Shown: positions 34,746-48,328 of the stretch, in pieces
How the letters are laid out: every line of letters starts with the position of its first letter
How positions within the stretch are numbered: position 1 is the stretch's first letter
Source: an uncultured delta proteobacterium
GTDB lineage: Bacteria > Desulfobacterota > Syntrophia > Syntrophales > Smithellaceae
Direction: 5' to 3'
DNA: 60,415 bases
NCBI GenBank assembly: GCA_903907985.1
Contig: CAIVQG010000055.1
Span: 66,725 to 127,139 of the forward strand
Notes under the pieces: generated by a model
The model's database searches: none
The model's input: the letters and a program-made list of their open reading frames with translations, nothing else
What the model was told of the DNA's origin: nothing
Made by a program: the position numbers and the translations under genes

Positions 34746-37445
34746 ATGGAAAAAAAAATACTGATAACAATTGATGGGAAAGAAATCGCTGCCAAACCAG
34801 GGCAGACCATTCTGGAGAGCGCCACCGAAAACGGCATTTTCATACCGACCCTTTGTCATTACTCGCGAACAACCAACGTCGGAGCCTGCCGCGTTTGCGT
34901 AGTGGAAGTGGAAAAGGCCCGATCGCTTATCGCCTCCTGCTGCATGCCGGTTAGCCCGGGCATGGTTATCCGTACGGACACAAAACAAGTGCGTGATGCC
35001 CAAAAAATGATCGTGGAGCTTCTCTGGTCATCAGGTGATCATAATTGTTTGACCTGTGAGCAAAACGGCCAATGCGAACTGCAGAATTTGATTTACTGGC
35101 TGAAAATAGAAGAGCCTCGTTTTCTGATAAACTCCCCCGGCATTGCTCTGGAAAATTCCAATACTATGATCCAGCGTGATCTCAATAAATGTGTCCTTTG
35201 CGGACGATGCATCAGGGCGTGCAACGAAATACAGGTTAATGAAGTACTTGATTTCTCGATGCGTGGCTCCCGTGCGAAAGTAGGGCCGGCTTTCGATGCT
35301 GACTATATTGATTCTTCCTGTGTCTTCTGCGGCGAGTGTTTACAGGTATGTCCCACAGGTGCCATCACCTATAAGCAGGCCAAATTTGCCGGCCGCCCGT
35401 GGGAAGTGGATAAAGTAAAGACGACCTGCACTTATTGCGGCGTTGGTTGCCAGATGGATCTCTTTGTTCATGAGGGGAAAATCGTTAAAGTGTCGGGAAA
35501 CCGCGAACACGGCAAGCCCAACGAAGGAAGCCTCTGTGTCAAGGGACGTTTCGGCATGGATTTTATTGCGCATCCCGACCGCCTGCAAAAGCCCTTAATC
35601 CGCCGTTCTAAAAACGAAGATTTAAAAGAAGCAAGCTGGGAGGAAGCCTATCAGTTCGTCGCCGATAAATTAACCGCTGCCAAAAAAGCCAGCGGTGCGG
35701 ACAGTATCGCGGGACTCTCTTCCGCCCGTTGCACCAACGAAGAAAATTATCTCTTTCAAAAATTTATGCGCGCGGTAATTGGCACCAATAATGTCGATCA
35801 CTGCGCGAGACTCTGACACTCGGTTACAGTGGCCGGTCTGGCCGCAGCATTCGGTAGTGGAGCAATGACTAATTCCATCGAAGAACTGGAATATACCAAT
35901 CTGATTTTAGCCACAGGCACCAATACTACGGAAAACCATCCCGTCATCGGCATGAAAATCAAGCGGGCTGTGCGCCAACATGGTACAAAGCTTATTGTTA
36001 TCGATCCGCGGAAAATTGATCTGGTTAAATATGCCGATATCTGGCTGTGCCAGAAACCGGGAACAGATGTGGCGGTCTTCAACGGTTTGATGAATGTAAT
36101 AATTGCTGAAGGCCTTTATGCGAAACAGTATGTAGAAGAACGCACTGAGGGCTTTGAAGCTTTGAAAGCGACAGTAGAGAAATATACACCGGAATATGTG
36201 GAAAACATATCCAGCGTACCAGCCGATGATTTAAGACGGGCTGCCCGTTTATATGCCAAAGCCAATAAAGCCAGCATTATCTATGCAATGGGCCTCACTC
36301 AGCATATCAGCGGCACAGATAATGTCAAAACTATTGCCAACCTGGCAATGCTCTGCGGTAATGTGGGTATTGAAGGCGGCGGAGTAAATCCGTTGCGCGG
36401 TCAAAATAATGTTCAGGGCGCCTGTGATATGGGCGGATTACCTAATGTTTACCCGGCATATCAGCAAGTCGCCAATGAAGACAGCCGCAAGAAATTTGAA
36501 GCAGCCTGGGGCGCAAATCTTTCGCCCAAGCCGGGATTAACACTGATGGAAATCATGAATGCCGCCGGCAGCGGCCAGGTTAAAGCTCTATACATAATGG
36601 GTGAAAACCCGCTGATGTCCGATCCTGATTTGCATCATGTTAAAGAAGAACTGAAAAAACTGGATTTGTTAATCGTACAGGATATTTTCTTCACAGAAAC
36701 GGCACAAATAGCTGATGTTGTCCTGCCTTCCGCCAGTTTTGCCGAAAAAGACGGTACATTCACCAATACCGAACGTCGCGTTCAACGCATCAGAAAAGCC
36801 GTTGCCGCACCGGGAGAGGCAAAACCGGATTGGGAAATCATTGGCGGGATTGCCACACAAATGGGCTATCCCATGCAATATTCATCGGCGCAACAAATTT
36901 TTGAGGAAATCACTTCTGTAACTCCCAGCTATGCAGGAATTACTTACAGAAGAATTGAGAAGGAAGGCCTGCAATGGCCCTGCCCCACTAATGATCATCG
37001 TGGTACAAAATTTCTGCACAAAGACAGATTTTCCCGCGGTCGCGGACTTTTCCATGCAATCGAATTCATACCGCCGGCAGAACTGCCTGATGCCGATTTT
37101 CCTCTCATTCTATCCACAGGCCGGGTTATCTACCATTACCATACGGGGACAATGACCAGACGTTCTCAGGGTCCCAGCGAGCGTTGTCCGGAGAGCCTGG
37201 TGGAAATTAATCCCTTCGATGCAGATAAATTAGGCATATCCGAAGGACAAATGGTTAAAGTAACATCACGCCGCGGCACGTTACAGGCTCGGGCCCAAAT
37301 AACTGGCAAAAGTCCGCAGGGAGCAATCTTTATGAACTTCCACTTTGCGGAAGCGGCGGTAAATTTATTGACAAATCCTGTTTTGGATCCGACAGGCAAG
37401 ATTCCCGAATACAAGGTCTGCGCCGTTAAAATCGAAGCAGCCTGA
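34746..37445 (+). CDS. fdhA: Selenocysteine-containing formate dehydrogenase catalytic subunit
   Basis: The full frame of 899 residues is read through an in-frame TGA at 35814-35816, placed as Sec at residue 357 in NNVDHCARL-Sec-HSVTVAG, the standard active-site position. Domains: [2Fe-2S] ferredoxin (1-80), His-Cys cluster (CLTCEQNGQCELQ, about 100), two [4Fe-4S] clusters (CVLCGRCIRAC, CVFCGECLQVC), the molybdopterin-domain cluster (CTYCGVGC, about 228), then the bis-MGD domains to a C-terminal beta-barrel (SEGQMVKVTSRRG). No Tat signal, so cytoplasmic. It oxidises formate or reduces CO2. No NuoF-like partner is adjacent. Confidence 0.95.
35814..35845 (+). promoter_or_regulatory. Bacterial SECIS hairpin for Sec insertion in fdhA
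   Basis: Twelve bases after the TGA, GTGGCC (35829-35834) pairs with GGCCGC (35840-35845) around a GGTCT loop. The GGTCT apical loop is also found in the SECIS of E. coli fdhF. Its distance from the UGA suits recognition by SelB. Confidence 0.92.
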
Positions 37446-37632: not shown

Positions 37633-38883
37633 ATGGTTAATGAAAATTTAGAAGGCAAACGCTGGTTTATTGCGCTTGCAGGTGTCATCATCATGCTGAC
37701 TCTGGGCACGGTTTACGCGTGGTCGGTTTTTGTCAAACCCATCGTGGCCGCCCAAGGCTGGGAAATGAAAGTAGTTTCGAGGGTTTTCATGTTGATTATC
37801 GGTGTCATCGGCATTTCCGCCGCATTTGGCGGTATTCTGGTGGATAAGAAAGGTCCCAAGTTCGTTGCAACTCTGGGCACCTGTTTTTATGGTGCAGGCG
37901 TTTTATTAGGCGGCATTGCACTTTATATCGGCAATTTCTGGTTTCTTTTATTCGGATATGGCCTTATCGCCGGCATCGGCAACGGCCTTGCTTATGTTGT
38001 TCCGATTGCCACTCTGATCCGCTGGTTTCCCGATAAGCGCGGTTTAATCACCGGTCTGGCCGTTATGGGTTTCGGTTTCGGTGCTTTTTTCATCGGCTTG
38101 ATTGCTCCCGGTCTCATCAATAAAGTAGGCGTTGCCAGCGCGTTTATAGTACTGGGTGCCGTCTATCTGGTCCTGAGTGTATCTGCATCCCTTACGCTGA
38201 AAAATCCCCCCGCCGGTTGGCTGCCCAAAGGCTTTACTCCAGCTTCTACTACCGTCAGTGCGGCTGATTCCTTTAGTTGGGCCGAGGCACACAAGACACG
38301 TCAATGGTACATGCTCTGGGTCATGCTCTTTTTGAACGTCACAGCCGGTATGGGACTTTTATCCAAGCTTTCACCCATGGCTCAGGAAGTCATTAAATTT
38401 GCGCAAAACATTGATGACCCGGCTAAGCTGGCTGTCCTGGGCGGCAGTGTTCTGGCTACAGCATCTATTTTCAATGGTCTGGGACGTCTTTTCTGGGCTG
38501 CCGTATCCGACAAAATCGGACGCAAAGGCGTATATATGGTCATGTTCCTGACGCAGGCGGTTTTATATATTCTGCTTCCTCAAGTCACCAGTGTGCTTGT
38601 CTTCACAATTATCGCATGCTATCTTCTCGCGTGTCTGGGCGGTGGATTCGCAGTCATGCCCGCTTTCGCGGCCGACTCATTTGGTCCGACCTATATAGGC
38701 AAGGTCTATGGCTTTTTGTTGACGGCATGGGGCGCCGCCGGTGTCGTGGGCGGTTTTGTCTTTGCGCAATTTGACAAGCAGCAGTCCCTCTACACAGCTG
38801 CAGCCTGTCTGGTCATCGGGTTCTTTGTTGCTCTGCTTTTCAAACGCCCCGAACATGTCTCTCATTATAGAACGACCAAGTAA
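37633..38883 (+). CDS. OFA-family MFS transporter (oxalate/formate antiporter type)
   Basis: A 416-residue major-facilitator protein with about 12 hydrophobic segments. The OFA family pattern is clear: GTVYAWSVFVKPI near the N-terminus, then GIGNGLAYVVPIATLIRWFPDKRG with the charged loop after helix 4, and DKIGRKGVYM in the middle of the second half. OFA proteins exchange oxalate, formate, lactate or other monocarboxylates. Since the gene directly follows the formate dehydrogenase unit, formate is a reasonable substrate, but this is inferred. Own transcript likely: terminators lie on both sides. Inner membrane. Confidence 0.88.
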   Translation: MVNENLEGKRWFIALAGVIIMLTLGTVYAWSVFVKPIVAAQGWEMKVVSRVFMLIIGVIGISAAFGGILVDKKGPKFVATLGTCFYGAGVLLGGIALYIGNFWFLLFGYGLIAGIGNGLAYVVPIATLIRWFPDKRGLITGLAVMGFGFGAFFIGLIAPGLINKVGVASAFIVLGAVYLVLSVSASLTLKNPPAGWLPKGFTPASTTVSAADSFSWAEAHKTRQWYMLWVMLFLNVTAGMGLLSKLSPMAQEVIKFAQNIDDPAKLAVLGGSVLATASIFNGLGRLFWAAVSDKIGRKGVYMVMFLTQAVLYILLPQVTSVLVFTIIACYLLACLGGGFAVMPAFAADSFGPTYIGKVYGFLLTAWGAAGVVGGFVFAQFDKQQSLYTAAACLVIGFFVALLFKRPEHVSHYRTTK

Positions 38884-38940: not shown

Positions 38941-38972
38941 AAACACCCTTCAGCTAAAACTGAAGGGTGTTT
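38941..38972 (+). terminator. Hairpin terminator after the OFA transporter
   Basis: A 13-bp perfect stem (AAACACCCTTCAG with its complement) around CTAAAA lies 58 bases after the stop; the T-tract is short (TTTCTATGTT). Confidence 0.75.
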
Positions 38973-39125
38973 CTATGTTATGTTATGCATGTTCTAATCT
39001 GCCTCTACACCCCTTCACCTTGACACATTCTTCACTTCTGTTTATAGTGATGCCACTTCATTTTTAATGGAAACATGTAAACTATTTATCATCACACATT
39101 GTTATCCCGTACGGAAAGGTTTTAA

Positions 39126-40505
39126 ATGATGGAAAAATCAATTGGGGAAAAATTGTTAAAATTGCAGAAGGAATTTTTCTGGACAGGCCGGAGCCGTGAC
39201 CTCAATTTCCGCATCGACTCTTTAAATAAGCTAAAGGTTGCAATTAAAACCCACGAAAAAGAGATTCTGGAAGCAGTTTACAATGATCTGCACAAAACCG
39301 CCTTTGATGCCTATGCTACAGAAATCGGCCTGATTTATGATGAGATTAATTTCGCTCTGAAAAATCTGCACGCCTGGGCCAAGCCGGAAAAAGTGAAGAC
39401 TGCTGTTTTTATCTGGCCGGCCAAAAGTTATATTCAGAAAGAGCCTTACGGAGTGGCGTTGATTATTGCTCCCTGGAATTATCCTTTTCAGCTATTAATG
39501 TCTCCGCTGGTCGGGGCAATTGCCGCCGGAAACACGGCCATTCTCAAACCATCGGAAGTATCGACGCATACGGCAGATGTAATTGAAAAGATAATAAACA
39601 ACACCTTTCCCGAAGAATATTTGCGCGTCGCGCAAGGCGATGTCGCACAGGCGCAGGCATTATTGGAACTCCCTGTTGATTATATTTTTTTTACCGGCAG
39701 CGTCCCCGTGGGTAAAGTTATCGTCAATGCGGCTGCCCGGCATTTGACACCTTTTACTCTGGAATTGGGGGGGAAAAGCCCGGCTATCGTCTGTGCCGAC
39801 GCCAATATTAGTCACGCCGCCAAAAAAATAGCCTGGGGCAAATTTCTTAATGCCGGACAAACCTGCATAGCTCCGGATTATGTACTTGTTCATGACTCCA
39901 TCAAGAATGAATTTCTCGCTGAATTAAAAAAAGTAATAATTAACTTTTACGGGGAAAATCCCGCCAAACATCAGCGATATTGCCGGATCATTAATGACCG
40001 TCATTTTCAGCGCCTAACCGGTCTCCTCAATGCTGCTAATATTTTTTCCGGCGGTCAAACCAACCCTGCCGACCGCTATATTGAACCGACTATTTTACAC
40101 CCGGCCCAGTGGGATGAACCCATTATGCAGGAAGAAATATTCGGCCCTTTATTGCCGGTACTTGTTTTCTCTGAAATCAGCGACATCATCCGGAAAATAA
40201 ATGAACGGCCCAAACCATTGGCGCTTTATCTTTTTTCCGCTGACCGTCTAATTCAAAAGCGAGTGACTGAAGAAATAGCATACGGCGGTGGCGCCATCAA
40301 TAATACTATAGTTCATGTAGCATCTCATTTCCTGCCTTTTGGCGGCGTGGGACCGAGCGGTATCGGTCGCTATCATGGCAAAGCCAGTTTTGATACCTTT
40401 ACTCATTGGAAAAGCATTGTGAAAAGTTCCGTCCGATTCGATACGGCCTTAGCCCACCCCGATAAAAATCCGGGAATGAAATTACTAAAGATGATTTTAA
40501 AATGA
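39126..40505 (+). CDS. NAD(P)-dependent aldehyde dehydrogenase
   Basis: A 459-residue ALDH of the short class-3-like type (related to fatty aldehyde dehydrogenases and YwdH). Visible: IIAPWNYPFQLLMSPLVGAI, FFTGSVPVGKVIV (about 192) for the nucleotide, TLELGGKSPAIV with the general-base Glu (about 210), and AGQTCIAPDYVLV with the nucleophile Cys (about 247). It oxidises aldehydes to acids, or in an anaerobe could run in reverse. The stop overlaps the start of the giant ATPase gene (ATGA), so the two are coupled, which is unusual. Confidence 0.92.
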   Translation: MMEKSIGEKLLKLQKEFFWTGRSRDLNFRIDSLNKLKVAIKTHEKEILEAVYNDLHKTAFDAYATEIGLIYDEINFALKNLHAWAKPEKVKTAVFIWPAKSYIQKEPYGVALIIAPWNYPFQLLMSPLVGAIAAGNTAILKPSEVSTHTADVIEKIINNTFPEEYLRVAQGDVAQAQALLELPVDYIFFTGSVPVGKVIVNAAARHLTPFTLELGGKSPAIVCADANISHAAKKIAWGKFLNAGQTCIAPDYVLVHDSIKNEFLAELKKVIINFYGENPAKHQRYCRIINDRHFQRLTGLLNAANIFSGGQTNPADRYIEPTILHPAQWDEPIMQEEIFGPLLPVLVFSEISDIIRKINERPKPLALYLFSADRLIQKRVTEEIAYGGGAINNTIVHVASHFLPFGGVGPSGIGRYHGKASFDTFTHWKSIVKSSVRFDTALAHPDKNPGMKLLKMILK

Positions 40506-43500
40506 CTATGTTGAACATCGTTGGAATAGATATAGGTTCTGTAGCAGTGTCGCTGGTGGTGATTGATAAAAAGGGAGCGGTAATTCATTCTTCCTATCAA
40601 TTTCATTCCGGGGCGATCAGAGAAACCCTCCGTTTAATGCTGGGCAATGTTGATATCAACACGATCGGCGGCATGGCCATGACGCATTCCGGCCCGGATA
40701 TTCTGCGCAATATTTTCCGTTATGATACGCAAATCGCAATTATTGCCGCTGTCCGGCAACATCACCGGGAGGTGGGCAGCATTCTCTTTGTCGGCGGTGA
40801 AAATTTCGGTTTGATCACTTTCAATGAGGAAGGTGATTATGAGCGATACCGGTCCAATTCATCTTGCGCCGCCGGTACCGGAAGCTTTCTGGATCAACAG
40901 GCCAAACGACTGAATCTTAAAAGCATCAATACTTTAAGCACAATTGCTTTCTGCAATCAGGAAAGCGCTCCCAAAATAGCCACACGATGTGCTGTTTTTG
41001 CCAAGACCGACCTGATCCATGCGCAGCAGGAAGGTTATTCCTTAGGGCAGATCAGTGATGGACTTTGCGAAGGTCTGGCCAGAAATGTCATTGACACTCT
41101 GATTCCGGACCAAATCATTCGCACACCTTTGATTCTTGCCGGCGGCGTTTCCATGAATCAGGCAGTTGTAAAACATTTTCAAAATCTGCTGGAAGTAAAA
41201 CCTGTTGTCGGGAAATACAGTCATCTCTATGGCGCAATCGGTGCCGGAGTGCTTTATCTGGAAGAGATGCAGCCGCAAAAGCTGAAAATTAAAAGCTGGG
41301 ACGAACTTTTTATCGATGAAAAGAAGGAAAAAGTCTACGGCTATCCGCCACTGCAATTATCACTGTCGAATTATCCGGATTCTATCACCAGCAAAAGTTA
41401 TCTCTATACTCCCCAATGTAATTCCGCAGGCATTGAAATTGATATTTATTCACCACCCAAAAAGCGACAGGAAGTCTATCTGGGCATCGATATCGGCTCC
41501 ACCAGCACCAAAGCCGTTCTAATTAATGAAAGCAACAATGTTTTGATCGGGCTTTATACCTCAACTGCCGGCCAACCGGTCCAAGCCGTACAGACACTTT
41601 TCGAGGCCATCGAAGACATTTCGCTTAATTATAACTGCCATTTCCTCTTCAAGGGCGTCGGCACCACCGGTTCAGGCCGGAAGTTTATCGGACGGATTAT
41701 TAACGCCGACCTCATGATTGATGAGATTACCGCCCATGCCCGCGCCGCCTACGAGTTGAATCGTGAAGTCGATACCATCATTGAAATCGGCGGACAGGAT
41801 GCCAAGTTCACCAACATGACCAACGGAATGGTAACTTCATCCGTTATGAACAATGTCTGCGCAGCCGGTACCGGCAGCTTCATTGAAGAGCAGGCATTAA
41901 AACTGGGTGTAAAACTTCCGGAATATGCCGGTCGCGCCCTCAATACGCCTTCTCCCATCTCCAGCGACCGCTGTACCGTTTTCATGGAGCGCGATATCAA
42001 TAACTACCTAACGGAAGGATACACTATTGATGAGGTGCTGGCCAGCGTTCTGCACTCTGTTTGTGAAAATTATCTAGCTAAAGTGGCAGTTGAAGCCAAT
42101 ATTGGCACGCGAATCTGCTTCCAGGGAGCCACCGCCCGGAACAAAGCACTCGTTGCCGCCTTTGAACATCGGCTGAAAAAACCAATCTTCGTATCCCAAT
42201 TCTGCCATTTAACCGGCGCCCTGGGCAGCGCCTTGATCCTGGCGGAAAATAAAGTAAAAAACTCTTCATTTCGTGGACTGGCTTTACATAAAGAAGCAAT
42301 CCCGGTCCAAAATGAAATTTGTGAACTCTGCCATAATAACTGCAAGATAAATATAGTAACTGTACAAGGCGATGTGGTTGCCTTTGGTTTTCTCTGCGGT
42401 CGCGACTACGACACGAAACAGTACGTCGGACCAACAAAAAAACAATATGATTTGATCAAAGAAAGGAACAAGGTTTTTCAGTTATCAAAAAAACGTACCC
42501 AGATTAAATCACCTTTAAAAATCGGCATTCCCAATGCACTTTATCTGGCTGAGGAAATGCCGCTCTGGAAGCATTTCTTTAAAACCCTCGGTGTAGAAAC
42601 TGTCACCGGTGATAATTTTAAAAATGCTATTAAGTCCGGCAAAAAGCTGGCGGGTGCCGAATTCTGCGCCCCGATGAATGCCTTCTTCGGCCATGTGCAA
42701 TATCTCGCCGATAAATGTGATTACATTTTTCTGCCTGTTTACCTGGAATCCCGGGAACCAAAACAAGACGCTTATCGCTACTACTGCTATTATACACAGT
42801 TTGCAGTAACGCTCGCCGCCGGAATCAAAAGTCTGCATTTAAAAAATAAAGCTATCATGCCCGTTATCGACCATCGTTCCTTTACCTCCAAAATAGAATT
42901 GTTCACAATGCTCAAACCGATTTTAACCACCGGCTACTGGGAAATTTTTAACGCCTATGAAGCAGCGCTGTCTTTCTATAATGAAAGACGCGATAACCTG
43001 CGCAATATCTACGAACGCGAAATGATCGACAGCAATGATATTAATGTCGTACTGCTCGGCAGGCCCTATTCCATTCTCCAAAATACAATGAATAAAGGAA
43101 TTCCGGACATCTTCGGTAATCTGAGCATTAAAGCATTCTATCAGGATATGCTGCCCTATCATCGGCACGACATATCGGAAATTGATCCGCTGCTGGCTAG
43201 GCTGCACTGGAATTATGCGGCCAAAATTCTCAAAGCGGCACTTTATGCGGCGCGAACTCCGGGAATATATCCGGTTTATATAACATCCTTCAAATGCAGT
43301 CCGGATTCTTTCACCATTGAATATTTCAAACGGATCATGGATAAATACGGCAAACCCTACCTCATTCTCGAACTGGACGAACATGATTCCAATGTAGGTT
43401 ACGAAACAAGGATTGAAGCGGCAGTCCAATCATTTCGCAATCATTATTCGGACAAATCACCGCGCACTAAACCTGCTCACTTTTTATCGCTCAATTCCGC

Positions 43501-44695
43501 AAGTGTAACCAAAATCAAAGATAAAACTTTGCTTTTCCCCTGCTTTGATCCGCTCAATGCCAAGCTGCTCGAAGCTGTTTTCATTAAAGAAGGCGTTGAT
43601 GCCCGGATGGTACCACTCACGGAAAAAACAATTCAACTCGGGCTGCGAACGAACAAAGGACAATGTATTCCCGTCAATCTTATTGCCCAGAGCTATATAG
43701 ATTACATTGAAGATAACTTTCTTGATCCGGCACAGACCGCTGTCTGGTGTTTTGAAAGTCATGTCGCCTGCAATATTAGAATGTATCCCCAAATGATCTC
43801 CGGAATAATGGAAGCAGCGGGCAACGGCATGGATAAAGTTGATGTTTATGTAGGCAATCTCAGTATGAGTGATATCTCTTTGCAGGCTTCGATTGAAGCC
43901 TACTTTGCCCATATGTTTGGCGGCATGCTGCGCAAGATTGGCTGTAAAATTCGTCCCTATGAAAAGGAAAAGGGCAAGACAGATAAGGCTGTTACCGAAG
44001 CCCTGAACATTTTTTACAATACATTGCTCGGCGGCAGAAACAAGGATGACGATCTAGCGAAAGTCATCGGCATGTTTAAAAAGATTGAAACAATTCCGGG
44101 GAAACGCCCCAAAGTAGCCATTTTCGGAGACATGTATGCCCGTGATAATGACGTCTTCAATCAAAATCTCATCCATTGTATTGAAGAATATGGCGGAGAG
44201 GTTATAACGACGCCATTTAATGAGTTTGCCAAACTGGTTGCGGACCCGTACATTAGACGCTGGTTTTATGAAGGTGAATATATGGATGTAATCTTTACCC
44301 GAACTATTATAGCTTTAGTCAGCCAATTGGAGAAAAGCTATTATAAATTATTTAACGAATTGCTCAATGAGACTTCTCTCGCTACTGATGTTGATTATAA
44401 GGATATTTATGACAACTTTGCGGTCAAAGTGCAGCATTGCGGTGAATCCATAGACAACTTAATTAAGATTACAGCACTCATCAAGCATTATCCTGATATT
44501 TCTCTGTTTGTCCAGACCAACCCTGCTTTTTGCTGTGCCGGTCTGATAACGGAAGCTATGTCCCAGCGTATTGAAGAATTCGCCGGAATTCCCATCCTCA
44601 CTCTGAACTATGACGGCACAGGAAAAAACATTAATCAAAAGATCAGGCCCTTTATTAAATATCCGCGTGGAAACCGGAGTGTAATTCGCCCCTAG
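40502..44695 (+). CDS. Large BcrA/BadF-type ATPase and DUF2229 protein (dehydratase activator-like)
   Basis: A 1397-residue protein. Two ATPase modules of the ASKHA class lie at about 1-270 (VGIDIGSVAVSL, CAAGTGSFLDQQAKRL) and about 320-590 (LGIDIGSTSTKAV, CAAGTGSFIEEQALKLG). Between and after them are conserved GG-DAK elements. From about 610 a cysteine-rich DUF2229/double-cubane-type region follows (CELCHNNCKI, FLCGRDYD, AGAEFCAPMNAFFG, NKGQCIPVNLI, WCFESHVACN, NPAFCCAGLI). Such proteins activate 2-hydroxyacyl-CoA dehydratases by ATP-driven low-potential electron transfer. A single chain may contain both the activator and a [Fe-S] acceptor. Confidence 0.88.
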   Translation: MTMLNIVGIDIGSVAVSLVVIDKKGAVIHSSYQFHSGAIRETLRLMLGNVDINTIGGMAMTHSGPDILRNIFRYDTQIAIIAAVRQHHREVGSILFVGGENFGLITFNEEGDYERYRSNSSCAAGTGSFLDQQAKRLNLKSINTLSTIAFCNQESAPKIATRCAVFAKTDLIHAQQEGYSLGQISDGLCEGLARNVIDTLIPDQIIRTPLILAGGVSMNQAVVKHFQNLLEVKPVVGKYSHLYGAIGAGVLYLEEMQPQKLKIKSWDELFIDEKKEKVYGYPPLQLSLSNYPDSITSKSYLYTPQCNSAGIEIDIYSPPKKRQEVYLGIDIGSTSTKAVLINESNNVLIGLYTSTAGQPVQAVQTLFEAIEDISLNYNCHFLFKGVGTTGSGRKFIGRIINADLMIDEITAHARAAYELNREVDTIIEIGGQDAKFTNMTNGMVTSSVMNNVCAAGTGSFIEEQALKLGVKLPEYAGRALNTPSPISSDRCTVFMERDINNYLTEGYTIDEVLASVLHSVCENYLAKVAVEANIGTRICFQGATARNKALVAAFEHRLKKPIFVSQFCHLTGALGSALILAENKVKNSSFRGLALHKEAIPVQNEICELCHNNCKINIVTVQGDVVAFGFLCGRDYDTKQYVGPTKKQYDLIKERNKVFQLSKKRTQIKSPLKIGIPNALYLAEEMPLWKHFFKTLGVETVTGDNFKNAIKSGKKLAGAEFCAPMNAFFGHVQYLADKCDYIFLPVYLESREPKQDAYRYYCYYTQFAVTLAAGIKSLHLKNKAIMPVIDHRSFTSKIELFTMLKPILTTGYWEIFNAYEAALSFYNERRDNLRNIYEREMIDSNDINVVLLGRPYSILQNTMNKGIPDIFGNLSIKAFYQDMLPYHRHDISEIDPLLARLHWNYAAKILKAALYAARTPGIYPVYITSFKCSPDSFTIEYFKRIMDKYGKPYLILELDEHDSNVGYETRIEAAVQSFRNHYSDKSPRTKPAHFLSLNSASVTKIKDKTLLFPCFDPLNAKLLEAVFIKEGVDARMVPLTEKTIQLGLRTNKGQCIPVNLIAQSYIDYIEDNFLDPAQTAVWCFESHVACNIRMYPQMISGIMEAAGNGMDKVDVYVGNLSMSDISLQASIEAYFAHMFGGMLRKIGCKIRPYEKEKGKTDKAVTEALNIFYNTLLGGRNKDDDLAKVIGMFKKIETIPGKRPKVAIFGDMYARDNDVFNQNLIHCIEEYGGEVITTPFNEFAKLVADPYIRRWFYEGEYMDVIFTRTIIALVSQLEKSYYKLFNELLNETSLATDVDYKDIYDNFAVKVQHCGESIDNLIKITALIKHYPDISLFVQTNPAFCCAGLITEAMSQRIEEFAGIPILTLNYDGTGKNINQKIRPFIKYPRGNRSVIRP

Positions 44696-45184: not shown

Positions 45185-46804
45185 ATGACAAAAAAGTATG
45201 ACGTGGTGGTAATTGGATCTGGTGTTGCCGGTTTGGGCTCGGCAGCCATCCTCGCCAGGGACTTCAAGCAGAAGGTTCTGGTGCTGGAGAGAAACCCCTT
45301 TATCGGCGGGCGCCTGGCGTCCTTCGTCGGCAAGGGCAACAAAGTATACATAGACGGCTTGGAATTGGATGCCAATGGTTTCAGACGCGCTCTTGCTCTG
45401 ACCGGATCATGGATTCCTAAATGCACACCGGACCTGGAAACATGCTTCAAAGACGGGCTGTTTGACGGATATACCATCGACACCGGACATGGTTTGTTCT
45501 GGGGCAATAAAGGTAAAATCCGCTGTTTGATGAACTACCTGGAAAAACCAGTCGATATGCCCTGTAATGTCGGCTTTGCTTTCGTTGATTACAAAAAGGG
45601 CAATAAGGCTTATCAGGTAGCCAAAAACGAACCCTACAAGTGGATGAGCGAGCAAGGCTTCCGTTCAACCATGATAGCCCTTCGAGACATGGCCGTGATG
45701 ACTCTGCAAGATATAGCACAAACCGCGCATATGTCTTTTGAACAATGGCTTCTGGCTAGAAACGTTCATAAGGAAGCTTATGATTATATCAAAGTTCTGG
45801 CAGCCTCCCAAACAGGGCAGGCTGATCTCCGTCTGACTCCGGCACCCGACGTCCTGGGACACATGGCTGCCGCATCCCCGATCAAAATGAACCTGGTTGA
45901 AGGTTCCTGCTCGACGGTTGCCAATCCAGGAACCATATCCTTTGCCTTATTGCTGGAAAATGTAATAAAAGAAAACGGCGGCGAAGTCCTCAGGAATTCC
46001 CCCGTTATTGAAGTAAATATTGATAAAGGTGTAGTTAATGGAGTCACTTACCAGACCACCAAAGGCATTGAAACAGTATTAGCAGAGAAAGTTATTTGCA
46101 ACATTCCGGCTAAGCAGATGCTTAATGTAATTCATCCCCGTTATTTCCCGCAGGAAGTTGTTGACAATGTTCAGAATAGGTTTTGGGGTGCCGGCATGAT
46201 TACCGGTTATGGCAATATGAAGTCCGACGTATGGAAAGAAAAAGGCATCGAAGAAAGAAGCTTCATTTACATGCCTGATGTTATTGGAACCGAAGAGGGA
46301 TACAGCGGATGTATTGACATGGTACTGTGGAATCTGGCCAATTGCGCAGAAGGAAGCAATTCCAATCCCACTCTGACCAATGAGACCGGCTCAGCACCGA
46401 AAGGTAAACATGGATGGATATTCTCCACCGCCATGACCCATGAAGAAATGAGAACTCCGCAAAAGGTTCAAAGAGTCGTCGAATGGAATGAAAATTGGTG
46501 GAAGAGAACTTTCGGAGCTAAAAAATGGACAAGCGAAATGGAGCATATGCTCTGGATGTGCACTGACCACGCCTTCGCCTGGATCCAGCCAATCGGACAA
46601 GACAGAATTGATGTAAAATCACCGGATATCGAAGGTCTGTATTTTGCTGGTGACCAATATGGCAAACGTCTGTGGGGTTGCGGTGTAGATGCCGCCGCTC
46701 TGAGTACCACTTTGTGCGTTGACAGCATAATGGGATCCAATACTGAAGAAAAAGTATTCCCGTTCTATCATCGGGCACTGCCTGAACCAAAGAAAGTCTG
46801 GTAA
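45185..46804 (+). CDS. FAD-dependent phytoene-desaturase-like oxidoreductase
   Basis: A 539-residue protein starting at the ATG at 45185 with AAGGAG upstream. The N-terminal FAD motif reads VVVIGSGVAGLGSAAILA and is followed by GGRLASF. Later a segment GQDRIDVKSPDIEGLYFAGDQYG (about 475-500) matches the C-terminal FAD-binding element of the amine oxidase/phytoene desaturase superfamily. The protein is longer than amine oxidases and has unusually many Trp residues. There are no carotenoid genes nearby, so the substrate is unknown. It stands as a single gene with a terminator after it. Confidence 0.8.
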   Translation: MTKKYDVVVIGSGVAGLGSAAILARDFKQKVLVLERNPFIGGRLASFVGKGNKVYIDGLELDANGFRRALALTGSWIPKCTPDLETCFKDGLFDGYTIDTGHGLFWGNKGKIRCLMNYLEKPVDMPCNVGFAFVDYKKGNKAYQVAKNEPYKWMSEQGFRSTMIALRDMAVMTLQDIAQTAHMSFEQWLLARNVHKEAYDYIKVLAASQTGQADLRLTPAPDVLGHMAAASPIKMNLVEGSCSTVANPGTISFALLLENVIKENGGEVLRNSPVIEVNIDKGVVNGVTYQTTKGIETVLAEKVICNIPAKQMLNVIHPRYFPQEVVDNVQNRFWGAGMITGYGNMKSDVWKEKGIEERSFIYMPDVIGTEEGYSGCIDMVLWNLANCAEGSNSNPTLTNETGSAPKGKHGWIFSTAMTHEEMRTPQKVQRVVEWNENWWKRTFGAKKWTSEMEHMLWMCTDHAFAWIQPIGQDRIDVKSPDIEGLYFAGDQYGKRLWGCGVDAAALSTTLCVDSIMGSNTEEKVFPFYHRALPEPKKVW

Positions 46805-47071: not shown

Positions 47072-47527
47072 ATGACCAAACACATATTATTATTCCTGAC
47101 GCTTTTTTTTATTTTTTCAGGAACGGCTCAGGCTGATTTTTACAAATGGGAGGATGAAAACGGCGTTATCCACATTACCGATTACCCTCCACCGGCTAAA
47201 TCCGGCAAAAAAATTCAAGTTCATAAACAAGATTCCCCAGCGCAAGAAAAAGAAGAGCAGGAAATATCAAAAGATGGGCAAAAAAAGAATCCTGATGCCG
47301 TTCTGTATACGAAAGATTCCTGCGGTGATTGCGATAAGGCGCGCGAATACCTGAAATCAAAAAAAGTGCCTTTTACAGAATACAATACCGATAACAATAA
47401 GGAAGCAGCTAAAAAAAGAAAAACTATCGATGACAGCGCCGAGGCCCCATTTGCCATTATCAACAATAATCAGGTATATGGATTTTCCGAAAGCATTTAC
47501 AATAAAGTATTAAAGGCGAAACCTTAA
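47072..47527 (+). CDS. Exported DUF4124-glutaredoxin fusion
   Basis: A 151-residue protein. An N-terminal signal peptide (hydrophobic LLLFLTLFFIF, then SGTAQA cleavage near 22) leads to a DUF4124 segment (DFYKWEDENGVIHITDYPP), a charged linker, then a glutaredoxin-like domain (about 77-150) with the active site CGDCDKAREYL and a TDNNKEAAKKR helix. It would be a periplasmic thiol-disulfide protein; DUF4124 domains often accompany such redox modules. It is 3 bases before the EFR1 gene. Confidence 0.82.
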   Translation: MTKHILLFLTLFFIFSGTAQADFYKWEDENGVIHITDYPPPAKSGKKIQVHKQDSPAQEKEEQEISKDGQKKNPDAVLYTKDSCGDCDKAREYLKSKKVPFTEYNTDNNKEAAKKRKTIDDSAEAPFAIINNNQVYGFSESIYNKVLKAKP

Positions 47528-47530
47528 CAT

Positions 47531-48328
47531 ATGAATAACTCAATTTATTTCTATACAGGAACAGGTAATTCCCTGTGGACAGCAAAAAACTTGGCCCGGC
47601 AGCTGGGCAATACTGATTTGATTCCTATGGTCCGGGAAAAAGAATCAATTAGCACTTCTGATGCCGAACGTGTTGGCATCATTTTTCCCGTGCATATGTG
47701 GGGTTTACCTCTGCATGTCATTGATTTTGTCCAGAGGCTGGCTGCCGATTCCGCCAAATACTTTTTTGCTGTGGCAGTAAATGCCGGACAGGTTGCCGCC
47801 ACCTTGATTCAGTTGCAAAAGATAATGCAGGAAAAAGACATTGTTCTTTCTGCAGGATTTTCCATATGTCTGCCCAGCAATTATATTCCCTGGGGTGGTG
47901 CCATCGCCGTGGAAAAACAGCAGGAACTATTTGCTGAGTCCTTAACCAAAATTAAATTAATTGCGGATATTGTTCGAGCCAAAGAAGCAAGGCTTCTGGA
48001 AAAGGGTCCTTCATTGCAGAATGTCTTCCTTTCTGCACTTTACAAAATGGGCTCACCGCGAATTCCGCAGATGGATAAATCATTCCGGGTTGATGAAAAA
48101 TGTACCGGCTGTAAAATATGTGAAAAAATCTGTCCCACCAAAAATATTATCATCGCCGACCGTAAGCCCACGTGGCATCATCATTGTGAGCAGTGCCTGG
48201 CTTGCATCCAATGGTGCCCTGAAGAAGCAATTCAATATGGAAAAAACACCAGAACAAAAAAACGCTACCATCATCCTGAAATAAAATTGCCGGAAATGAT
48301 CGCCAGCAACACTCCGCCAAACAGGTAA
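47531..48328 (+). CDS. EFR1-type flavodoxin-ferredoxin fusion
   Basis: A 265-residue EFR1-family protein. Residues 1-150 form a flavodoxin-like domain whose phosphate loop reads FYTGTGNSLWTAKNLA, which is the family hallmark (EFR1 means flavodoxin with ferredoxin). Residues about 190-245 carry two [4Fe-4S] sites: CTGCKICEKICPTKNI and CEQCLACIQWCPEEAI. It probably moves electrons at low potential between unknown partners in the cytoplasm. The ATG follows the glutaredoxin stop by three bases, so coexpression is likely. Confidence 0.9.
   Translation: MNNSIYFYTGTGNSLWTAKNLARQLGNTDLIPMVREKESISTSDAERVGIIFPVHMWGLPLHVIDFVQRLAADSAKYFFAVAVNAGQVAATLIQLQKIMQEKDIVLSAGFSICLPSNYIPWGGAIAVEKQQELFAESLTKIKLIADIVRAKEARLLEKGPSLQNVFLSALYKMGSPRIPQMDKSFRVDEKCTGCKICEKICPTKNIIIADRKPTWHHHCEQCLACIQWCPEEAIQYGKNTRTKKRYHHPEIKLPEMIASNTPPNR

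Follow-up and report, generated by a model that had tools for sequence, protein, structure and literature searches.

A probable Ger2-like member of the PlsA/Ger family of iron-sulfur reductases and its optional aldehyde dehydrogenase neighbour in an uncultured bacterium of the Smithellaceae

The window analysed in this study is a stretch of 60,415 nucleotides on contig CAIVQG010000055.1 of an uncultured delta proteobacterium of the Smithellaceae (assembly GCA_903907985.1). It encodes an aldehyde dehydrogenase (ALDH) and, abutting it on the plus strand, a chain of 1397 amino acids (aa) with ATPase and DUF2229 domains. This chain is near certainly a member of the PlsA/Ger family, and we consider it probable that it represents a one-chain reductase of the benzoyl-CoA reductase/2-hydroxyacyl-CoA dehydratase (BCR/HAD) type from a Ger2-like clade, which acts on a lipid ester and has the ALDH as an optional neighbour. 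ATP-driven reduction of a lipid ester is the likely function; for a lipid ester as the substrate, taken by itself, the odds are about even.

Two activities are reported for the family. PlsA with PlsR accomplishes the anaerobic introduction of the vinyl ether bond of plasmalogens (PMC12838417; PMC9702350), and Ger forms alkyl ethers (PMC11150832; PMC13274423; earlier proposal in PMC8788747). For the bacterial formation of sn-2 and dialkyl ether lipids, Ger2 has been suspected as a second enzyme; it was inactive in the experiments described in PMC11150832. Related ether lipids are in use as paleoclimate biomarkers.

Domain architecture of the 1397-aa chain

Pfam recognizes BcrAD_BadFG in two stretches of the chain, then DUF2229 and a sub-threshold HGD-D tail. 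We name the modules Act1, Act2, Red1, and Red2, the labels placed on models of PlsA (PMC12838417), and list their limits and cysteines in Table 1. The two ASKHA ATPase modules proposed in an initial annotation of this DNA were confirmed by the two Pfam stretches, by the homology of Act1 and Act2 (hhalign E 4.5e-65, the second module also being the second Pfam stretch), and by a structure model of the N-terminal half with a mean predicted local distance difference test (pLDDT) score of 77. The best PDB matches of this model, 4ehu, 9gai, and 1hux, were aligned over 275, 265, and 274 columns, respectively, i.e., about one module, and the model resembles activators of 2-hydroxyacyl-CoA dehydratases and subunits of 3-methylbenzoyl-CoA reductase. 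Each of the two BadF/BcrAD modules carries two cluster cysteines, the arrangement by which we recognize the PlsA/Ger family.

The C-terminal half had been described as double-cubane-like. This holds only loosely: the chain yielded no match to the NCBIfam double-cubane model NF040772 at E<=0.001, and a double-cubane-cluster protein was rejected on this ground. Profile comparison reveals DUF2229 and then, on the same chain, two HgdB-like reductase modules with three cysteines each. Red1 and Red2 match each other in hhalign with a probability of 98% (E 2.4e-13), and match an alignment of four HGD-D proteins from the same genome with 96% over 58 columns and 71%, respectively. In all, 14 cluster-type cysteines are conserved across the six clades under comparison, which comprise 66 of the 70 aligned sequences, if gaps are disregarded; L131, L132, L151, and a Paraclostridium sequence stand outside this count. 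A chain of Listeria monocytogenes has the same domains as the window chain, and a 2022 review states that the plsA/plsR orthologues of Listeria appear active (PMC9702350).

Reduced versions of the architecture occur among the relatives. A 1282-aa activase/DUF2229 chain on a plasmid of Paraclostridium bifermentans (L070, 5001-8849), adjoining a Crp/Fnr regulator and an ABC transporter, has both ATPase modules and the Red1 cysteines and is devoid of the four-Cys site and the Red2 cysteines. L132 (1479-5858) and L151 are versions of about 1000 aa terminating after Red1; in L132 a separate 450-aa homologue comes next, like the split into PlsA and PlsR.

Such chains had been expected to serve 2-hydroxyacyl-CoA dehydratases, said to be absent. 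This is true of the neighbourhood in the window but not of the genome, which encodes a canonical dehydratase operon on C35 (255-aa activase, HGD-D subunits of 414 and 374 aa, acyl-CoA ligase), a set on C3 (fused HGD-D/activase chain and a 435-aa HGD-D protein), and a double-cubane reductase homologue on C40 (L119, 7046-8212; 468 bits to NF040772 against a cut-off of 350), on whose contig the BadF search found no activase. These HGD-D proteins, together with the resemblance of Act2 to stand-alone activators (TIGR00241; MbdQ; the activators of 2-hydroxyisocaproyl-CoA and 2-hydroxyglutaryl-CoA dehydratases), would suit a chain that is a spare activator for a 2-hydroxyacyl-CoA dehydratase or benzoyl-CoA-reductase-like enzyme elsewhere in the genome (C35, C3). 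However, C35 and C3 each possess an ATPase of their own and therefore do not explain the window chain; a dehydratase activator was rejected for this reason. The chain is also unlike an activator of the HgdC type, i.e., a stand-alone single-module ATPase beside dehydratase alpha and beta genes. Judged from its sequence, it is a one-chain machine: as it brings two reductase modules with six conserved cysteines, no dehydratase subunits would be needed. We regard the spare activator as most improbable. Besides, C3 contains a 1326-aa open frame (L118, 28494-28976) with a weak BadF match (46 bits), which is 26% identical to the window chain in a stretch of 132 residues.

Table 1. Coordinates of the two genes, of the modules of the long chain, and of signal-like sites upstream
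Feature	Positions	Strand	Remarks
Terminator-like hairpin	38941-38972	+	between upstream MFS transporter and ALDH; consensus scan only
Sigma-70-like promoter upstream of ALDH	39020-39048	+	11/12 matches, 17-nt spacer; consensus scan only
ALDH gene	39126-40505	+	459 aa, ALDH3-type; Pfam Aldedh E 7e-88
PlsA/Ger-family single-chain Fe-S reductase, Ger2-like clade (probable)	40502-44695	+	1397 aa (1395 if start = 40508)
Act1, first BadF/HgdC-type ATPase module	40508-41263	+	conserved C122, C163
Act2, second ATPase module	41477-42247	+	conserved C453, C491
Four-Cys site	42320-42397	+	C607, C610, C614, C632; possible extra Fe-S cluster (putative)
Red1, DUF2229 + HGD-D-like tail	42419-43531	+	C722, C762, C932
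Red2, second HgdB-like module	43544-44692	+	C1055, C1090, C1344

The Ger2-like clade and changes in its catalytic half

Homologues at E<=1e-40 were found in 290 of 395 genomes of a phylum sample, for which the two best candidates per genome were scored; an identity of at least 44% was reached in 20 of the 395, the genome under study included. Trees were built from 66 and 70 chosen sequences, a part of the homologues found (144 matching frames in one search, repeats included). The FastTree tree of 70 sequences divides the family into several clades, one of which, hereafter the window clade, unites the window chain with its close homologues (at least 44% identity). Another such chain of the same genome, on contig C51, groups with homologues of genomes G036 and G389 (support 1.0).

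For two proteins of Desulfatibacillum alkenivorans, PMC11150832 gives masses calculated from sequence: 159 kDa for the active Ger and 153 kDa for Ger2, which formed no ether lipids. Besides short activases, G036 (6.5 Mb) encodes two long homologues of 159.6 kDa (L152) and 153.3 kDa (L052), computed from the first in-frame Met; the pair of the congener G389 amounts to 160.7 and 153.9, and other pairs weighed fit less well. We infer, partly from the masses of 153 and 159 kDa, that G036 represents D. alkenivorans or one of its near relatives. L152 falls into the C51 clade and L052 into the window clade, such that the window chain sorts, at a support of 0.724 and with the genome identity deduced as above, with the 153-kDa rather than the 159-kDa homologue. 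On this identification the window chain would be Ger2-like and the C51 chain Ger-like.

Among the 13 sequences of the Ger-like clade, the Asp of the Act1 GxDxGS signature is replaced, by Cys in 12 and by Asn in the C51 chain (L095, 8018-12331), and the Ser has mostly become Ala. This suggests that in this clade, which includes L152, only the second module hydrolyses ATP.

Ten changes distinguish the window clade at sites that are otherwise conserved (in at least 85% of the other sequences, only Paraclostridium left out, with the change in at least 85% of the window clade), and all of them lie in the catalytic half. Five are at most two residues away from a cluster-type cysteine (P763Y, E1054Q, R1091N, F1342A, M1345C); the remaining five are F974A, G1063Q, W1134Y, D1141G, and E1210D. 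Red2 holds most of the substitutions (Q1054, N1091, G1141, D1210, A1342, C1345). Seven changes occur in all 26 members, one in 25, and two in 23. The enrichment near cysteines has a p of 0.010, a value that treats sites as independent and was computed post hoc once the pattern was visible. Four control clades reveal 0, 0, 1, and 0 such changes; the Ger-like clade has eight, located at cysteines of the activase or of the four-Cys site, and none by the Red1 or Red2 cysteines.

At the level of motifs, PAFCC is present in 26/26 sampled members of the window clade and in 0/44 other sequences, three of which (L132, L151, and the N part from Fusobacterium) end before this region. CRxxQY-type and PFxC motifs are absent from all 26 and occur in 38/44 and 39/44 sequences elsewhere, respectively, so that by our own, unpublished yardstick the window clade lacks the Red2 motifs common to the other clades. 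Of the narrower signatures, CYY[TS]Q matched 25/26 members, while GQC (7/26) and CN (20/26) had been drawn too narrowly and captured only part of the clade. A Ger2-type divergence of the active site was not found described in the passages of the literature searched. Literature searches likewise yielded nothing relevant on ether lipids of Smithella and nothing joining plasmalogens, aldehyde dehydrogenase, and benzoyl-CoA reductase.

Compared with L022, the ratio of nonsynonymous to synonymous substitutions (dN/dS) is about 0.07 (dN 0.11, dS 1.7), indicating purifying selection; dS values range from 1.7 to 3.2, which is high, and none could be computed for L012, so the ratio is rough. With purifying selection and clade-specific changes combined, the proteins of the window clade look like enzymes that are being maintained and whose active-site region has changed, and the changes by the cysteines of the catalytic half point to a changed substrate or reaction.

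A second homologue accompanies the window-type chain in 24 of the 25 genomes checked (5/5 and 19/20 in two sets), in G368 only as a 638-aa frame; the exception is G483 (78% complete). In G426 and G398 of the order sample, which contain window-type fragments only, no second match was obtained at the search threshold. Of the 375 remaining genomes in the phylum sample, 270 have some homologue, so that a second member of the family is often to be expected anyway.

The published experiments on Ger2 bear on how these changes are to be read. According to PMC11150832, expression of D. alkenivorans Ger2 in E. coli gave no ether lipids; its authors consider that the protein may have formed inclusion bodies, that the conditions of expression may not have suited it, or that a cofactor may have been missing. 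Together with the replacement of near-invariant residues (R1091N, D1141G, E1210D, F1342A) and the second homologue in nearly all window-type genomes, this result would fit a window clade that lost catalysis and assists the Ger-type paralogue as a regulator or scaffold. However, all 14 cluster-type cysteines and both ATPase signatures are kept under purifying selection, and co-expression of Ger2 with Ger is reported not to raise diether abundance (PMC11150832). We therefore consider a loss of catalysis unlikely.

An ordinary PlsA, producing sn-1 plasmalogens (vinyl ethers) as the clostridial enzyme does, would have the same domains and the same Cys set. In our tree, however, the window chain lies outside the clade of Listeria, Acetoanaerobium, Fusobacterium, Collinsella, and Haliovirga, and its Red2 motifs differ from theirs, which makes an ordinary PlsA quite unlikely.

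We give more, though less than even, credence to the window clade being a functionally distinct, PAFCC-type branch of ATP-driven Fe-S reductases with a reaction so far assigned to neither PlsA nor Ger, e.g., reduction of the sn-2 ester or a net release of free fatty aldehyde from lipid esters, which the ALDH would return to fatty acid. In that case the inactivity of Ger2 would reflect a different substrate and not misfolding.

The aldehyde dehydrogenase and its linkage to the chain

Open reading frame (ORF) calls and the Pfam scan confirm both annotated genes as real ORFs. If translation of the long gene begins at its first ATG, the four-base overlap (ATGA) once described is present, with this start and the ALDH stop codon sharing bases. 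A second ATG at 40508 would replace it by a 2-base gap; this codon (residue 3) corresponds to the start in several relatives, and residue 1 to that of the congener L022. With either start, the genes abut. A terminator-like hairpin and a promoter-like site precede the ALDH gene (Table 1). These fit a two-gene unit as consensus matches, on a background of 12 hairpins in the scanned region (7.5 expected) and 19 sigma-70-like sites (11.5 expected).

The ALDH shows the ALDH fold with the motifs GQTC (of the GxTC type) and ELGGK, and its nearest enzymes are of the ALDH3 type: the closest solved structure is 6k0z, named only as an ALDH, followed by class-3 ALDHs, including human fatty aldehyde dehydrogenase (4qgk). 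A fatty-aldehyde-type dehydrogenase with a predicted long-chain substrate is plausible.

For linkage, we collected 39 loci (38 distinct) and used the 31 distinct ones with at least 2 kb upstream, dropping L009, L014, L018, L020, L025, L087, and L093 for shorter flanks and L076 as a duplicate of L013. An ALDH is located directly upstream on the same strand in three of the 31 (window, L017, L021) and within one gene in five, the additional two (L026, L077) being separated by one opposite-strand gene. Loci at 44-51% identity reveal no adjacent ALDH (0/15). More remote copies lie 4.6 kb away in L019 and 9.2 kb away in G229, and a more distant ALDH lies 6.3 kb away on the opposite strand in L090. 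In the congener L022 (= G471), whose chain is 82% identical to the window chain, the order of formate dehydrogenase, MFS transporter, and chain is kept without the ALDH, and a search of that genome at E<=1e-100 gave none. Of 18 sampled genomes of the window's family, 11 have a window-type chain, seven an ALDH of at least 59% identity, and six both.

The linked ALDHs (window, L017, L021, L026, L077) fall into one ALDH clade, next to or within which the unlinked copies of G422 and G462 are also placed; G067, G422, and G462 have the ALDH without this type of chain. From the linkage and the one-clade pattern we conclude that part of one family has inherited the pairing and that it is optional: it recurs within that clade, and outside it the two genes are largely unlinked. 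The ALDH of G462 (L173, 1501-2880) is 93% identical to that of the window, in a genome assigned to another family and lacking the long chain; it represents either a transfer or a contaminating contig (7% contamination listed).

The proposal that both genes form one ATP-driven system reducing free carboxylic acids to aldehydes draws on their abutting in the window and on the single clade of linked ALDHs, by which the arrangement looks inherited and not random. It is countered by the few loci with a directly upstream ALDH, by L022/G471, which keeps the same upstream genes without it, by the ALDHs occurring without this chain type, and by the published substrate of the family, which is an ester and not a free acid. 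A carboxylic acid reductase pair was rejected since the linkage is not kept, and we consider it very unlikely. What stands of the proposal is its spirit: according to the published chemistry, the family reduces a carboxylic ester by means of an activase-driven Fe-S enzyme. A dedicated, ALDH-coupled acid reductase is not supported. The clearing of an aldehyde by-product by the ALDH, the other suggestion made, is plausible in view of the chemistry of the PlsA/Ger family.

No operon partner common to the relatives was found among the 39 loci; the ALDH and one pair of downstream genes are partially conserved neighbours. This pair (47072-48328, +) encodes a small protein that resembles glutaredoxins and has a signal-like start, and a flavodoxin-like/4Fe-4S protein. 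Of 31 loci with 4 kb or more of downstream sequence, four (window, L017, L022, L077) have the gene for the latter inside this distance; it is also present in L009 and, at a greater distance, in L020. Its product could act as electron donor and is as optional a neighbour as the ALDH.

Farther upstream, a formate-dehydrogenase-like gene (34746-37445, +) is split by an in-frame TGA at 35814 (CARL-TGA-HSVTV), probably a selenocysteine codon; that of L022 is similarly split (356 + 540 aa). The MFS transporter (37633-38883, +) exceeds the NCBIfam cut-off of model NF049980 (L-lactate transporter). An FAD oxidoreductase (45185-46801, +), encoded downstream of the long chain, has weak phytoene-desaturase-like matches; apart from the window, L020 is the only one of the 39 loci with its cluster downstream.

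Proposed mechanism and comparison with known systems

We propose that the window chain, as a Ger2-like reductase, would work as follows. Act1 and Act2 would form an internal pseudo-dimer holding one [4Fe-4S] cluster between C122/C163 and C453/C491. ATP hydrolysis would push low-potential electrons, perhaps through the four-Cys site, to the clusters of Red1 and Red2. These would bring a carboxylic ester that is inert otherwise, in the most likely case that of a fatty acid in a membrane glycerolipid, down to a hemiacetal or aldehyde and from there to an ether of the vinyl or alkyl type. This final conversion is predicted by analogy to the family, and the probable orthologue Ger2 is reported to have given no such product in E. 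coli. Given the changed Red2 region, the substrate (e.g., the sn-2 position) or the product probably differs from that of Ger. The ALDH would probably oxidise aldehydes freed by this chemistry or by ether-lipid turnover.

Several observations weigh against this explanation. The clade support of 0.724 is only moderate, and Ger2, if of this clade, yielded no ether lipids in the E. coli experiments of PMC11150832. The match of Red2 to HAD proteins (71%) is weak taken alone, and an AlphaFold model of residues 590-1397 reached a mean pLDDT of 35, so the closeness of the altered residues to a cluster is a matter of sequence position. Three of the four sequences outside the Cys count lack part of the set: Paraclostridium has neither the four-Cys site nor the Red2 cysteines, and L132 and L151 end before Red2. 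Among the neighbours, only some of which were scanned for families, no lipid-synthesis gene is conserved.

Changes by the catalytic-half cysteines, in a clade with an extra copy in 24/25 genomes, give a sequence-based reason to consider another substrate, and the motif set may help to separate the window branch from Ger and PlsA. According to PMC13274423, an assignment to Ger or PlsA from the primary structure alone is not yet possible.

Among known systems, the 2-hydroxyacyl-CoA dehydratases with their HgdC-type activator and the benzoyl-CoA reductases of the BadFG/BzdQ type share the ATPase fold and the HgdB-like reductase modules with the window chain. They consist of separate subunits and act on CoA esters, whereas the window chain is a single polypeptide. 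For the neighbouring ALDH, the counterpart is ALDH3 or fatty aldehyde dehydrogenase (ALDH3A2), with common catalytic motifs and class-3 chains matching at E 1e-122 to 1e-125.

Within the family, PlsA has the same Act1-Act2-Red1-Red2 plan, with the cysteines conserved in the relatives aligned. PlsA/PlsA-PlsR (Clostridium perfringens, Enterococcus, Lactococcus) is encoded by two genes in some species, in contrast to the one chain of the window. The named relatives found (Listeria, Collinsella, Acetoanaerobium, Fusobacterium, Haliovirga) are about 25-27% identical to the window chain and unlike it in their active-site motifs. Ger (D. alkenivorans SHJ90043; Thermotoga maritima Tmari_0479) is reported to contain two ATPase modules (PMC13274423), as does the window chain; its ester-to-ether chemistry is reported, whereas that of the window chain is predicted from the family. 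The probable Ger, L152, and the paralogue on C51 belong to the other clade, with about 30% identity to the window chain and with the PFxC-type Red2 motifs that the window clade lacks. For Ger2 (D. alkenivorans SHK01260; PMC11150832), the reported mass of 153 kDa equals that of L052 of the window clade, presuming that SHK01260 corresponds to the G036 protein, and L052, the probable Ger2, is 47% identical to the window chain.

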